Made by a program: the position numbers and the translations under genes. Source: Desulfosporosinus nitroreducens (GTDB lineage: Bacteria > Bacillota > Desulfitobacteriia > Desulfitobacteriales > Desulfitobacteriaceae). Taken from it: 64,000 nt of DNA. Positions 16,361 to 49,360 of this stretch are shown here, piece after piece; position 1 is the stretch's first letter; the number at the start of each line of letters is the position of its first letter. Location of the stretch: positions 1-64,000 of the forward strand of contig NZ_JAMHFY010000004.1 of the NCBI RefSeq assembly GCF_023897015.1, in the 5' to 3' direction. Under the pieces are notes generated by a model. The model made no database searches, was not told the DNA's origin, and worked only from the letters and a program-made list of their open reading frames with translations.

Positions 16361-16479
16361 TAATATTCCACCTTTTTCCGTGGTTATGGTTTACTGTCTC
16401 CAAAGCAGACATCCACTGATGCCTGTGAGCCAAGGCCCACTTCTCGCCTCAGTCTCGAACAACTACCCAAACTTGCATA

Positions 16480-17039
16480 GAAGGCGCACATGAAATGTGC
16501 CTTCTCCCAAACAACGTCTCCCCCGTTCCCAGCCCCGGGACGCAGTGTCATACATCAGCGACGTCTTTACCTAAGCAGCTAAGGGCAACCAAGAACGGTC
16601 CCCCAACTTGCATAGAAGGCGCACATGAAATGTGCCTTCTCCCAAACAAGCGTCTCCCCCGTTCCCAGCCCCGGGACGCAGTGTCATACATCAGCGACGT
16701 CTTTACGTAAGCAGCTAAGCAAAGTTCCGTTCAAGCGACCCCAGACGCGGGGCAGTGTACAGGGTCCCCTCCCGCCATCCTGCAAGAAGGCTAATCCGTG
16801 CGAAGACAGTGTCTTCGGGCTCCGGGGACACTAGTCCATCCATGGACGTCGGATGTACACTGCCGCCAGTGAGCCACGGACGGCTCATCTGGCACGATAG
16901 TCTCCAGTGGAGATTATCGCCGTAGGCGGGTTCTTTAAAATAATACTATCGCCGAAGGATGAACCCTGCTCCCCAAAGCCAAGAGCTTGAACGGTTAGTT
17001 TGCTCTGCGTCGTATGACCGAGCGATGTACACGCAAGTC
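16480..17039 (-). repeat. Structured intergenic repeat, copy A3 with internal duplication (behind rsmE)
   Basis: This is the longest copy. The distal ~105 bp (GAAGGCGCACATGAAATGTG start at 16480) is duplicated at 16615. Hairpins CGAAGACAGTGTCTTCG (16801-16817) and GTCCATCCATGGAC (16834-16847) match A2. The rsmE stop codon TGA (17040-17038) overlaps the terminal TGACTTG of the element. The remaining stretch back to mtaB (16361-16479) shows nothing recognisable. Confidence 0.9.
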
Positions 17040-45784: not shown

Positions 45785-46102
45785 TTACAACCCCTTTGTC
45801 CCTTTACTTACGGTATAAGCCTCTTCCACTTCCGTCACAAAGATTTTTCCATCTCCCATGGTTCCTGTTTTGGCACTCTCCAGAATGACACTTATAGCCT
45901 CATCCAACTTTTCATCTTCAACAACCATGAGCAGCAAAGTTTTGGGAAACTCATCATAAACCACATCCCCAATTCGAATCCCTTTAGTTCTGCCGCGACC
46001 AAAAACGTGCATTTTTGTCAGCGAAGGCATTCCGGCCTGTGCTAGGGCTTCAGACACAGCCTCAGTTTTATCGGGTCTTACAATTGCTCTAATCATTTTC
46101 AT
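45785..46102 (-). CDS. nifI1: Nitrogen regulatory PII-like protein NifI1
   Basis: A PII-family protein of about 105 aa. MIRAIVRPDKTEAVSEALAQ at the N-terminus, a short T-loop (GRGRTKGIRIGDVVYDEFPK) and GTMGDGKIFV fit NifI1. It is the first large gene of the nif operon. The ATG at 46102 is chosen because GGAGG lies 9 nt upstream; an ATG 9 nt further up is too close to that site. A 17-codon ORF ends 20 nt before it. Confidence 0.94.
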   Translation of the reverse strand: MKMIRAIVRPDKTEAVSEALAQAGMPSLTKMHVFGRGRTKGIRIGDVVYDEFPKTLLLMVVEDEKLDEAISVILESAKTGTMGDGKIFVTEVEEAYTVSKGTKGL

Positions 46103-46122
46103 ATAGTTCATCCTCCTCAAAA

Positions 46123-46176
46123 TTAAGTCGCTTTTTCATAACCTGCAGTCTTACATGAGTCTAAATAAATGTCCAC
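46123..46176 (-). CDS. Candidate 17-aa leader peptide upstream of nifI1
   Basis: The minus strand has GGGAGGTGAT (46189-46180), an almost perfect anti-16S match, then a GTG at 46176 opening 17 codons: MDIYLDSCKTAGYEKAT, stop TAA at 46125-46123. The stop lies 20 nt upstream of the nifI1 start. I do not recognise the peptide. It could couple translation to nifI1 or be a sensory upstream ORF. Coding status is inferred only from the ribosome site. Confidence 0.5.
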   Translation of the reverse strand: MDIYLDSCKTAGYEKAT

Positions 46177-46297
46177 CGCATCACCTCCCTTAAGTAGCAC
46201 TCATTTCAAATTATCAAAGTAAATCGTATAGTATCTCGGTTCTAAGCCCTTCCTCTCTGTCGGAAGATGTTATCTGAGAGTCAACGATGAAAAGACA

Positions 46298-46340
46298 AAG
46301 AGAGCCCTTAATTAATTAAAATAATTAAGGGCTCTCTAAA
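46298..46340 (-). terminator. Strong intrinsic terminator inside the nif leader
   Basis: On the minus strand AGAGAGCCCTTAATTA pairs with TAATTAAGGGCTCTCT, a perfect 16-bp stem with a ~7-nt loop, followed by TTGTCTTTTC. It lies 196 nt upstream of nifI1 and downstream of the NAG array. A separate CCAAATC/GATTTGG hairpin (46354-46374) precedes it. Either it ends the hutP-like transcript or it is an attenuator for nif. Confidence 0.88.
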
Positions 46341-46413
46341 ACACTTTTCCGCTCCAAATCTACGCTCGATTTGGTGCCCGGTTATGAAGTTATACTATGG
46401 GAATAAATATTCG

Positions 46414-46607
46414 CTTTAGTCTTCTCAGACTTACTCTAACTCTCACTCTGTCACTAAATTCTTTATTCTTTATTCTTTATTCTTGGTATCTTAATATCTA
46501 GCTATCTAGCTATCTGGTATCTCGGTATCTACCTATCTTAGTATCTTTCGATCTGAAGCTTTTTGACTCTGTCCTAGCCTATATTCTCAAGATCCCTATA
46601 CTTATAC
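46414..46607 (-). promoter_or_regulatory. NAG-triplet array, candidate HutP-type RNA binding site in the nif leader
   Basis: Read as RNA (minus strand), NAG triplets repeat through this stretch. Between 46555 and 46454 there are 14 in a row whose G residues are 8,8,8,8,7,8,8,8,8,7,7,7,7 nt apart (CAGATCGAAAGATACTAAG... onward). The triplet is kept while spacers vary (ATCGA, ATACT, ATAGG, ATACC, ATAGC). Less regular NAGs extend the array on both sides. HutP is known to bind NAG repeats with 4-nt spacers (period 7), and a HutP-family gene ends 115 nt upstream. No direct proof of binding. Confidence 0.7.
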
Positions 46608-46721
46608 TTTGATCAATTCCGAGAGACTCCCCCACCGAAGTCTCGATGTTCAACTTTAGCTGAACGAGTTCACTTAACTCTCCGACTCTTTCAGTCCCAA
46701 CTCTTAACCTTTTCTCTCTAA

Positions 46722-47165
46722 TCAAAGATGCATTACACCTAATCCAACACGTGCGTGTTCTAATAGAGGATGAAGGGAAGAACGGCCATAAATCGCTACC
46801 GCAATCCACTCGGTGTCTGTGGTTAACCCAATTTTAAGAGCGAAACTAGCATTACTGTTGGTATGAATAAAAATACTGTTGCTCGCTTCTAACGTAGCAT
46901 GGATAAGAGCATGAATCTTTCGGTCTTCCTTGGGAATGACCCCAGTATTAAATGCTGTTGCCATCACTGAATTTGTAAGCTTACCCGTATGTTGGAGATT
47001 CGCTACAGTTCCTCCAAGTTCAGTCACACCGCAACGTAGATCAAACGATTCATAGAGAGACTTCTTAAGTTTCTCCTCTTCCTCCCTCGTCTCTGTCATA
47101 GCTAACTGCAAGGCTGACCGCTCTAAGGAAGGTTTCACTTTTTCCATAGGTACTGATACTTTCAA
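46722..47165 (-). CDS. HutP-family RNA-binding antiterminator-like protein
   Basis: A 147-aa protein matching HutP along its length. HALIHATLEA (H85, H89) corresponds to the HxxxH of Bacillus HutP, and the C-terminal WIAVAIYG...GLGVMHL with H146 to its third metal ligand. Bacillus HutP, with L-histidine and Mg2+, binds NAG repeats in hut mRNA and prevents termination. Here no hut genes follow; the NAG array, a terminator and nifI1 do. A TTG start at 47165 has AGGAGGGG upstream. The ligand may differ from histidine. Confidence 0.88.
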   Translation of the reverse strand: MKVSVPMEKVKPSLERSALQLAMTETREEEEKLKKSLYESFDLRCGVTELGGTVANLQHTGKLTNSVMATAFNTGVIPKEDRKIHALIHATLEASNSIFIHTNSNASFALKIGLTTDTEWIAVAIYGRSSLHPLLEHARVGLGVMHL

Positions 47166-47252
47166 GTTTACCCCTCCTCTTCTTACTCTATGAATTGCAA
47201 GGTGTCGTCATAGATGCATCATCCTTATTAAACTTATGCAATAGCTAGAATT

Positions 47253-47303
47253 AAAAAAAGCCGCCAAGTATCTTTTAAAGATACCTTGACGGCTCCATTG
47301 CCG
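47253..47303 (-). promoter_or_regulatory. Overlapping hexaloop hairpin and terminator in the hutP-like leader (ANTAR-like)
   Basis: On the minus strand, CGGC-AATGGA-GCCG (47303-47290) forms a hairpin with a six-base loop having A at position 1 and G at position 4, the ANTAR-protein target signature. Its 3' arm GCCG is also the start of a terminator stem, GCCGTCAAGGTATC / GATACTTGGCGGC, followed by seven Ts (ending 47253). The two folds exclude each other. A TATCACTTAGTGATA palindrome (47324-47310) lies upstream but does not make a clear second hexaloop. A plain terminator for the upstream gene is the alternative. Confidence 0.5.
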
Positions 47304-47330
47304 ATTCCCTATCACTAAGTGATATTCCAT

Positions 47331-47359
47331 ATAGTACTCGAAATTCCGCCCTTTGTCAC
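47331..47359 (-). promoter_or_regulatory. Probable SigA promoter of the hutP-like gene
   Basis: GTGACA (47359-47354) and TACTAT (47336-47331) are 17 nt apart on the minus strand. Transcription would begin near 47324, giving a ~160-nt leader that contains the hairpin/terminator pair. The match is good but not consensus. Confidence 0.55.
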
Positions 47360-47473
47360 CAAGCAAAAAAACTCAAATCTGTTGTAATACTATCAAAAAC
47401 ATCATGTTTTAGTACTCTATTAACCCGTGACGCCATTTTACTTAATAATTCAATCTCCCTTATCAAGAGACGT

Positions 47474-49360
47474 TCAGTCATCTGAAAAATTCAAGTAGTT
47501 GCTCCGAATAATCTCATCCGCGATCTTTAAACCGAGGATAGCATCCTCCCTCTCTTTATCTGAGAGACAGTTCCCGACGACTTGTCCATTTGATAAAACT
47601 GTAAAGTTCTTATTAGTATTCAAGAGATTTCGCCCCATTGCCGTGCCCTCATACTCTTTACGATCTACCCCCATAAGATAAGCCAAGGTTGGCATAATAT
47701 CAATCTGTCCACCAATCGTCTCTATTTCCTCTCCAAAGATCTCCTTCGCGTAAATAAGCAGAGGTATCTGATTATACCCTTCAAGCCACCAGCTTTCCGG
47801 GTCCTGCAGTTGCTTTATCTCATCATCATAAAACTTATGCACTCCCGTATGATCGCCATACAATACGATGGCTGTATTCTCCAATAATCCATCCCTATCC
47901 AATTGATCAATAAACTCTCCTATTTTTTGATCCGTATAATGAATGCTTTGAAAATATCCTCCCAACTTAGATTGATCTAATACAGGGTTTAAGTTCAAGT
48001 CGCAATATTGTGCCGGTAAATTAAACGGGGCATGACTGGTAAGCGTAACAAGAAAAGTATAAAAGGGTTGCTTTTCCGCCTTGATCACCGAACTTACCTG
48101 CCTCAGGTAGCTCCCGTCACTGATACCTAAGCCAATCCACTCGTCCATTTCAAAATAGCTTTCATCAATTGTCCGTTGAAATCCAATCGCGGTAAGAGCT
48201 TGACGCCAATTCCAATAGCCCCCCTTATCGGGATGGATGGCCAACGTTTGATAACCCTGGTTTTCCAGAATTTTTGGTAACGAATTGTAGGTATTACCTG
48301 GGAACCGGAAGAAAGTCGCCCCCTGGCGCACCGGATAAACCGAAGTATTAATCATTAAGTCAGCATCCGAACTCGTACCATTCCATACTTGCTCATAAAA
48401 TCTAGAAAAGTACAGACTGTTCTTCAACAACCTATTCAAGTTAGGCGTAATCTCTTGGTCATTAACACGCTTCCCAATCACAAAGTTTTCAAGGGATTCT
48501 ACTTGAATCACTATTAGATTTTTCCCTTGTAACTTGTTTGAGTAGTGGTTCACAGGAAGGTTCTCTCTTTTATCTGTAAACCAGGCCTCGATTCGTTGCT
48601 GATCCTCAACACTTAGTAGCAGCGGTTGGCAATCTTCCCAGTAATTATAAGCATCGTAGAGGTGATAACCGAAGGGCGAGAGATTAGAGATCGTTTGGTT
48701 GGATGACCAAGAACGCTTAAACAAGAAAGAGTTATCATTTATCTTTAAGACGTCGAGCATAAAATGATTGACAAAAATATAACCTGAGGAAGAAAGAATT
48801 AACATTAAGAAGATTGGAAAACTCCGTACGACGGATTTAAACCTGGGCGCAATTTTGTAGCCAACCACCAGAAGCAAAATTATATCAATTACAAAGACTA
48901 AATCAACCGGCCTAACCATGGAAATAATGCTCTCCCAGAGATTGTGCAAATTGGTGGCTTGGGAAAACGCATGAACGGAAAAAAAATTGCCAAATGCCCT
49001 AAAGTTCATTAAGTCCACGACCATTACAACTGACAATAGCAGGTTGAAGAACACCAGCATCCAGTAATGAAACTTACCCCTAAACAAAAAAGCAACGCTC
49101 AGCAAGGCAACTTCAAAGGAAATATAGATCATAAAAAAAGGCTTATAGGTAAACAGTTGAAAGGCTTTACTAAAGCTAAAATGGACCCCATCATTATTTA
49201 CTAAACCTAAAAAAAACATTGCTTTGAAAAGTAACGCCAACCAAGTATAGTGAAATAGCTTTTCATGACGACCAACGCGGTGCAGACTTGCTTGTATTGA
49301 TTGAAGGGAATTTACAGGGCATGCCCCTTGAGTCCTGTAATTAGTTCTTTCAATTTTCAT
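47474..49360 (-). CDS. LTA synthase family membrane sulfatase
   Basis: About 628 aa. Five predicted membrane helices occupy roughly the first 200 residues. An extracellular sulfatase-type domain follows, with LIVIQVESLENFVIG, WNGTSSDADL (nucleophile Thr) and LYGDHTGVHKF (metal-binding Asp-His). Such enzymes polymerise glycerol phosphate on glycolipids (lipoteichoic acid) or transfer phosphoglycerol. The start at MKIERTNYRT (49360) is a guess, as no strong ribosome site is present; the frame is open to 49426. Confidence 0.9.
   Translation of the reverse strand: MKIERTNYRTQGACPVNSLQSIQASLHRVGRHEKLFHYTWLALLFKAMFFLGLVNNDGVHFSFSKAFQLFTYKPFFMIYISFEVALLSVAFLFRGKFHYWMLVFFNLLLSVVMVVDLMNFRAFGNFFSVHAFSQATNLHNLWESIISMVRPVDLVFVIDIILLLVVGYKIAPRFKSVVRSFPIFLMLILSSSGYIFVNHFMLDVLKINDNSFLFKRSWSSNQTISNLSPFGYHLYDAYNYWEDCQPLLLSVEDQQRIEAWFTDKRENLPVNHYSNKLQGKNLIVIQVESLENFVIGKRVNDQEITPNLNRLLKNSLYFSRFYEQVWNGTSSDADLMINTSVYPVRQGATFFRFPGNTYNSLPKILENQGYQTLAIHPDKGGYWNWRQALTAIGFQRTIDESYFEMDEWIGLGISDGSYLRQVSSVIKAEKQPFYTFLVTLTSHAPFNLPAQYCDLNLNPVLDQSKLGGYFQSIHYTDQKIGEFIDQLDRDGLLENTAIVLYGDHTGVHKFYDDEIKQLQDPESWWLEGYNQIPLLIYAKEIFGEEIETIGGQIDIMPTLAYLMGVDRKEYEGTAMGRNLLNTNKNFTVLSNGQVVGNCLSDKEREDAILGLKIADEIIRSNYLNFSDD

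Follow-up and report, generated by a model that had tools for sequence, protein, structure and literature searches.

A HutP-family gene, a conserved attenuator with a NAG triad and the probable control of nitrogenase read-through in Desulfosporosinus nitroreducens

The window analyzed here is the whole stretch of 64,000 nucleotides from Desulfosporosinus nitroreducens (contig NZ_JAMHFY010000004.1, positions 1 to 64,000). On its minus strand, a gene encoding a HutP-family protein was followed by a gap rich in NAG triplets, a conserved attenuator element (R1) and a nitrogenase operon. The features of the locus, in the order in which they lie on that strand, were as follows.

47359–47331, minus strand, promoter-like site GTGACA, 17 nt, TACTAT (sequence scan)
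47303–47253, minus strand, ANTAR-like hexaloop hairpin CGGC-AATGGA-GCCG overlapping a terminator with a T tract
47165–46722, minus strand, nif-type hutP, HutP-family protein (Pfam HutP, PF09021)
46721–46392, minus strand, NAG-rich gap between hutP and R1 (52 AG in 330 nt)
46555–46454, minus strand, NAG array, 14 NAG at 7–8 nt steps (raw sequence)
46391–46289, minus strand, R1 attenuator element, about 100 nt (model R1, 111.3 bits)
46379–46376, minus strand, GGGC, 5′ half of the proposed antiterminator (best fold of partial transcripts)
46374–46354, minus strand, R1 hairpin CCAAATC...GATTTGG (31 stem types over 59 copies)
46354–46336, minus strand, NAG triad with steps of 8 and 8 (GAG 46354–46352, AAG 46346–46344, TAG 46338–46336)
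46337–46299, minus strand, intrinsic terminator of 16 pairs, with the third NAG at its foot and a T tract to 46289
46332–46329, minus strand, GCCC of the terminator 5′ arm
46188–46178, minus strand, GGAGGTGATGC (anti-Shine-Dalgarno complement) after the terminator (motif search)
46120–45399, minus strand, nifI1 and nifI2 (Pfam P-II)
45342–35954, minus strand, nifH, D, K, E, N, X-type, ferredoxin, nifB and nifV (profile matches)

A preliminary description of this DNA had placed a terminator and then nifI1-I2-HDKENX-B-V behind hutP, and this order was recovered as nifI1-I2-HDKENX-fdx-B-V. The nifD, K, E and N products exceeded the NCBIfam cut-offs; nifB and nifV were assigned from best matches that nevertheless lay under their equivalog cut-offs. 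The promoter-like site was the sole sigma-70-like site on the minus strand between 46100 and 47600, in a scan that returned three sites on both strands against 3.6 expected, a number not above chance alone. A promoter between hutP and nifI1 (TACAAT before TTTCATAACC in the Desulfosporosinus copies) was considered and rejected: by eye it was not kept in other genera, the scan found none there on the minus strand, and at five copies R1 nearly abuts an ANTAR-type terminator. A sigma-54 site in GGGCAC was likewise rejected by eye, on its variable loop and wrong spacing. Rfam gave no match in the window at gathering scores; at E values up to 5, four sub-threshold matches were obtained in 46100–47500, three of them to miRNA models on the palindromic terminator. 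Elsewhere in the window, a 136-bp unit is directly repeated in tandem at 16466–16719 (1.9 copies, 97% matches).

The product of hutP had been called HutP-like, with HxxxH and the C-terminal His retained, and profile and motifs bore this out: the ORF matched Pfam HutP with 121.6 bits (E 3e-35, cut-off 25), and HALIH, EH and a C-terminal MHL were all present. In the Bacillus structures, HutP coordinates metal and contacts a base through the HxxxH motif and the E-H pair. Across the 47 distinct nif-type sequences compared, the first and second H of HxxxH were each kept in 45, and the E and H of the pair in 47 and 46, respectively; together with the C-terminal His these residues were kept throughout, save in three degenerate proteins (L088, L108 and L109), each of which had lost at least one of them. 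A monomer structure was predicted with AlphaFold from 20 natural sequences. The best of five models had a mean pLDDT of 89.4, the remaining four ranging from 71.7 to 40.5; it superposed on solved HutP (1vea_B) with Z 18.4 and 2.2 Å over 130 residues, the runner-up fold reaching Z 6.8, and the window protein is thus predicted to adopt the HutP fold.

Membership in the family does not make it the hut antiterminator. Against the equivalog for that protein (NCBIfam PRK03065), the window protein scored 34.9 bits, below the cut-off of 155, and nif genes adjoin it in place of the hut-gene neighborhood that PRK03065 specifies; on profile and context it is a HutP-family member of another kind. The genome itself carries three HutP-family genes, namely the nif-type gene, one of hut type that precedes a hutH-like ORF and a third inside an aroH/aroF-like operon (neighbors of the latter two named by reading). 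When 67 rows were placed in a midpoint-rooted tree, nif-type, hut-type and aro-type proteins formed separate groups (100/95, 100/100 and 100/100, respectively). The aro-type clade consists of L001, where the gene lies within an aroH/aroF-like operon, and L121–L130. Its members are without HxxxH and without the E-H pair, and metal and RNA binding may therefore have been lost in this clade. In nif-type proteins, the hut-type segment RGP...LRTVGLRFA is replaced and about 12 residues are absent there, which suggests a ligand other than histidine. One nif-type hutP without an adjacent R1 (L080:986-1396) lies upstream of an ABC transporter that appears, on reading, to be of the amino-acid type, a possible hint at what that ligand is.

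R1 was recognized by comparing the gaps downstream of hutP at 26 related loci, terminator included, and a model was built from 31 copies, the window copy among them. What the preliminary description had listed as a bare terminator proved to be part of a conserved hairpin-and-triad element, in which GGGC is followed by a hairpin and by three NAGs at 8-nt steps, the third lying inside the terminator foot. RNAalifold gave 22 pairs, six with double changes, and one terminator pair was A-U in 20 of the 31 sequences and U-A in the other 11. Hairpin stems were fully paired in 57/59 R1 copies (e.g., CCTGAG/CTCAGG and CGACCCG/CGGGTCG), a count that leans towards a stem because the script selects by pairing. 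The same script placed a NAG at the hairpin 3′ end in 56/59 copies; of the three exceptions, L073:3498 and L075:14046 had lost NAGs and L105 had been given another stem. After redundant copies were merged, the full triad (+8 or +9, then +16 to +18) was present in 37 of 38 distinct triad segments, 30 of which had the exact 0,8,16 arrangement.

The preliminary description had proposed asking whether NAG spacing is kept while spacers change, and this is what the 37 triads show, with spacers and hairpins that differ among copies (15 different first spacers; A, G, T or C as the N of the second NAG). The triplets bound by Bacillus HutP have 4-nt spacers. That value, which the preliminary description had quoted for Bacillus, does not fit here, where the spacer is 5 nt: the second NAG was at +8 in 34 distinct segments, at +9 in three and at +7, the position implied by the 4-nt spacers at the terminator in PRK03065, in 0/38. 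Sequence outside the triad was also kept. GGC(A/G)C, which precedes the hairpin, is retained to class level, and a UUCAU box on its 5′ side occurs in the Desulfosporosinus and heliobacterium-like loci, the box being absent from L079 and L083–L085. GGGC pairs 4/4 with GCCC in 56/59 copies, with double changes to AGGC/GCCT (three copies) and GGGT/ACCC (two copies); in the other three the end pair is broken. For window transcripts ending 64–84 nt into R1, GGGC:GCCC is part of the best fold (−14.8 to −16.0 kcal/mol), and at 92 nt the best fold switches to the terminator (−34.6 kcal/mol). A GGAGGTGATGC-type motif follows 31/58 R1 copies, up to class level (L103–L107); no conserved ORF was found behind it.

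The explanation that we favor, with good though not complete confidence, is HutP-type antitermination of nitrogenase read-through, in which the nif transcript would begin with a gene for a HutP-family protein, and this protein would control passage into nifI1-I2-HDK. By default, the R1 terminator would halt RNA polymerase after hutP. In the active state, presumably nitrogen limitation, a HutP oligomer would sit on the NAG triad, with its 8-nt steps, between hairpin and terminator; the bound protein would block the terminator and leave the GGGC:GCCC antiterminator, and polymerase would go on. That binding blocks the terminator is suggested by the third NAG, which forms the foot of the terminator 5′ arm. 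The opposite direction, in which HutP binds the triad and promotes termination as a repressor under ample fixed nitrogen, for example by disturbing GGGC:GCCC, appears unlikely. It would make sense of the antiterminator being in the best fold while 64–84 nt of R1 are made, and of the position of the triad in the loop that the antiterminator closes, where binding could disturb the pairing. A protein bound at the terminator foot should hinder the terminator, however, and the terminator fold is so much more stable (−34.6 versus −14.8 kcal/mol) that it needs no help. In Bacillus, HutP prevents terminator formation, according to the passages available from PMC7430163, and this, together with the third NAG in the terminator foot, favors antitermination.

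Upstream of R1, the preliminary description had reported 14 consecutive NAG triplets over 46555–46454. The raw sequence contained exactly these, with steps of 8,8,8,8,7,8,8,8,8,7,7,7,7 (starts at offsets 0,8,16,24,32,39,47,55,63,71,78,85,92,99 from 46555). In the window gap, 16 AG pairs were separated by 8 nt and 10 by 7 nt, and the longest chain of NAGs at 7–8 nt steps had 15 members; 300 dinucleotide shuffles averaged 4.0 and never reached 15. For statistics across loci, a hutP end was recognized upstream of 32/52 R1 copies; of these 32 gaps, one redundant gap and one of <35 nt were removed, and the 30 kept (5781 nt) were pooled after R1 had been excised. AG pairs at 8 nt numbered 188 against 84 expected (z 13.1) and at 7 nt 73 against 85 expected, so that the 7–8 nt steps given in the preliminary description were exact for the window, whereas the pooled preference is for 8 nt and not 7. 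Further excesses of AG were found at 6 nt (z 2.9), 10 nt (z 3.7), 16 nt (z 5.9) and 18 nt (z 4.4). The periodicity, whose absence from relatives had been named beforehand as a point against HutP-type attenuation, was present in them: z was 12.3 at 8 nt without the window, and in seven gaps of other genera 39 AG pairs were found against 17 (z 6.4). Other dinucleotides also peaked at 8 nt; of the six compared, AG scored highest by z in the full set, and in the other genera TA (z 6.6) was slightly above AG.

The array varied among loci. Its periodicity was not significant in many of them taken singly (e.g., L094, L095, L085 and L075), and it was missing before some R1 copies. Within 150 nt 5′ of R1, 17 nif copies had a strong excess of AG pairs (82 versus 35.8), and eight copies before a gene of about 510 amino acids had none (6 versus 3.1). 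Because the array is variable, often insignificant per locus and absent before some R1 copies, the core site was taken to be the triad at the terminator. The long array emphasized in the preliminary description, on which several HutP hexamers might load, is thus real, but it is accessory, the variable part of a system whose core lies elsewhere. We infer that it would serve as a landing platform holding HutP on the nascent RNA. It is rather improbable that the window array is a functionless simple repeat expanded by slippage. Such an origin would suit an array that consists, as read, of 7- and 8-nt units in tandem, differs among species and is missing before some R1 copies, but the differing repeats of individual species (by reading, NAGATANN, NAGAATA, NAGTGATT and NAGAGTTT) keep their NAG steps at 7–8 nt, and the 8-nt signal persists in the pooled gaps without the window and in those of other genera.

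In 82 genomes of the class, 47 nif-type hutP genes were found in 41. R1 lay 2–464 nt downstream, on the same strand, of 42 of the 46 testable genes, the remaining gene (G020) being at a contig edge, and the R1 of G003 was detected only at E 0.002. The four genes without an adjacent R1 were those of G007, G079 and G005 and the second gene of G074. In G007, HutP is intact and R1 copies lie elsewhere, one of them before an amtB-like gene; the proteins of the other three are the only histidine losers among the 47 distinct sequences. By genome, R1 was present in 36/82, all 36 with nif-type HutP, and was found in 0/41 class genomes without it. Filters were stricter in the searches over 40 genomes, which overlooked copies in G073 and G074; a local search found R1 in these two of the five HutP-only genomes. 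Because the genomes are related, these counts are not independent. Among 299 genomes of the phylum, R1 was found in six only, all of the window's class. Opposite-strand matches were excluded from copy counts as an artefact of the palindromic terminator. Of the 70 listed sense-strand matches, which include one weak match (G027:C30, E 7e-4), there were 24 for which the 600 nt upstream contained no listed nif-type hutP. At class-level reach (L103–L107), the order was ANTAR-like hairpin, hutP, R1 (E 7e-9 to 1e-10) and nifI1-I2-H-D-K. Many class genomes with nifH carry neither nif-type HutP nor R1, and control by HutP and R1 is therefore regarded as lineage-specific; the system appears, from the genomes compared, to belong to anaerobic spore formers of one group, together with some distant relatives.

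The pairing of R1 with hutP at 42 of 46 genes, the retention of the triads and the pooled 8-nt periodicity are strong comparative support for the attenuation of nif by HutP that the preliminary description had proposed. A riboswitch function of R1, or its recognition by a different protein, with hutP a mere neighbor, is very improbable: GGC(A/G)C and the UUCAU box are kept beyond what NAG binding alone needs, but no R1 was found without nif-type HutP in the 82 genomes, the triad conserves NAG spacing, and degenerate HutPs are without R1.

The genes behind R1 were assigned by motif within 2.6 kb for 59 copies, 8 of which received no assignment. The nifI1-nif genes followed 26 copies (24 within 350 nt, two beyond 2 kb) and a NifH-first operon 12, one of the latter encoding an Fe-only nitrogenase (ANFD equivalog). 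The gene of about 510 amino acids followed six, to which reading adds L064 and L065; an SsuA-like ABC transporter followed two, amtB two (to which reading adds amtB directly behind R1 at L079 and L110, the gene at L110 being an ammonium transporter), and a NifA-like activator, AnfO and a MORN-like gene one each. The protein of about 510 amino acids is encoded behind R1 at L063, L064, L065, L068, L069, L071, L072 and L074, often after an ANTAR-like terminator and R1. The one tested, that of L064, had no Pfam or NCBIfam match beyond chance, the best being a weak sigma-32-like match (E 0.08). According to the mechanism of antitermination proposed above, the same HutP would act in trans on such R1 copies, before anf, amtB and other genes. 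At five trans copies (L065, L068, L071, L072 and L074), R1 starts 0–15 nt after an ANTAR-type terminator, and trans R1 should therefore act on read-through RNA.

A comparable element, absent from the preliminary description, precedes hutP itself. Its hexaloop has A at position 1 and G at position 4, the ANTAR signature according to the passages available from PMC3369931 and PMC8934654, and the hairpin overlaps a terminator. Under a strict rule, this arrangement was found before 24/47 nif-type hutP genes and in 0/235 mononucleotide shuffles; under the same rule it was not found in L083–L087 and others. One hexaloop hairpin was recognized upstream of hutP, and by eye no second was made out. The genome of the window has two ANTAR-domain matches. 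R1 was also considered as an ANTAR target and rejected by eye, having no A1/G4 hexaloop. The ANTAR-like element thus lies upstream of the window hutP, and like terminators lie directly before R1 at trans copies. The arrangement suggests two attenuators in series, such that in about half of the loci HutP control would sit behind a second, ANTAR-like attenuator.

The hut-type paralogues provided a reference for the NAG step. Of 11 hut-type leaders, the eight with a terminator anchor, all of the window's genus, were measured; the other three (L116, L117 and L120) are from other genera. Relative to the anchor, NAG occurred at −18 in eight leaders, at −11 in seven, at −4 in five and at −2 in eight; a full 7-7 triad was present in 4/8, steps of 7 then 9 in three, and the middle NAG was absent in one. 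In these same-genus leaders, the NAG cluster runs into the terminator. Two HutP paralogues in one genus therefore appear to face codes of 7 and 8 nt, as judged on the hut side from few sequences. More distant HutP homologues of the phylum (L133–L151) precede ORFs that read like acyl-CoA transferase, carboxyltransferase and permease genes. A terminator was present in 15/17 of the phylum HutP loci scanned (20 fetched; L134, L141 and L152 omitted). NAG steps near these terminators were mixed, with 8-8 in a few (e.g., L146 and L150), and a phylum-wide NAG pattern is a lead only.

A wider scheme can be sketched, which we hold tentatively and about which doubt slightly outweighs belief. In it, Firmicutes would possess a broad class of antiterminators tuned by ligands, with HutP as one of its branches. 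The branch at nif would run a nitrogen regulon (nif, anf, amtB and others) through a conserved RNA, tell its sites from those of the hut paralogue by NAG step (8 versus 7 nt), work in series with the ANTAR attenuator as an AND gate and use long NAG arrays as landing platforms; further branches would act before acyl-CoA and transport operons.

If the favored mechanism is true, HutP would extend from a single histidine operon to an antiterminator family, and control of nitrogenase at the RNA level would lie with a relative of HutP that has an RNA element of its own, an 8-nt code and trans copies. It offers a testable account of nif control for a group of anaerobic Gram-positive diazotrophs, and the 7-nt and 8-nt steps in one genus are a natural pair for asking how spacing sets specificity. 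A literature search on HutP and nitrogenase, with most subscription papers outside its scope, found none, and no title among the matches listed for HutP concerned nitrogen fixation; within the literature searched, we thus found no earlier description of HutP-type control of nitrogenase. Enkh-Amgalan and colleagues reportedly described in 2006 a Heliobacterium nif cluster with 'orf1' as a possible regulatory gene. In the passages available from PMC7143216, orf1 of H. modesticaldum is said likely to regulate the nif genes, and in Heliorestis convoluta orf1 could not be identified, nifA likewise being reported absent. G076 has nif-type HutP, and in G080, a relative with nifH, none was found; this would fit an identity of orf1 with nif-type hutP if these two genomes are H. 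modesticaldum and Hrs. convoluta. The orf1 of the Heliobacterium nif cluster may well be nif-type hutP, resembling it both as a possible nif regulator and in its pattern of presence and absence. Earlier work may thus already have suggested orf1 as a regulator; what appears new is the link to the HutP family, R1 and the NAG code.

Among other known systems, TRAP of trp attenuation is ring-like and has RNA wrapped around it, with NAG triplets at regular intervals; its triplets are (G/U)AG with 2–3 nt spacers, and its fold is unrelated to that of HutP. The regular triplets are a likeness, but the spacers of 5 nt and the HutP fold differ, and TRAP was rejected on both. The ANTAR systems (EutV and NasR, and Pelobacter carbinolicus) share the A1/G4 hexaloop overlapping a terminator with the element upstream of hutP; R1 differs from them, being without such a hexaloop, carrying NAG triplets and following the HutP gene. 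ANTAR targets have been predicted at nitrogenase operons of P. carbinolicus, according to the passages available from PMC3369931. The nif type also resembles the hut operon of Bacillus subtilis and the hut-type operons of Desulfosporosinus, with which it has in common the family, the fold, the positions of HxxxH and E-H, hutP as first gene, an attenuator between hutP and the structural genes and a NAG cluster overlapping the terminator foot. Bacillus has its NAGs in two clusters of three, 20 nt apart (PMC7430163, passages available). The nif type differs in being directed at nitrogenase and not histidine use, in forming a separate clade (100/95), in the replaced histidine-type loop segment, in a NAG step of 8 (5-nt spacer) versus 7 in complete hut-type triads, and in having the hairpin with GGGC:GCCC, the long extra array and R1 copies in trans.
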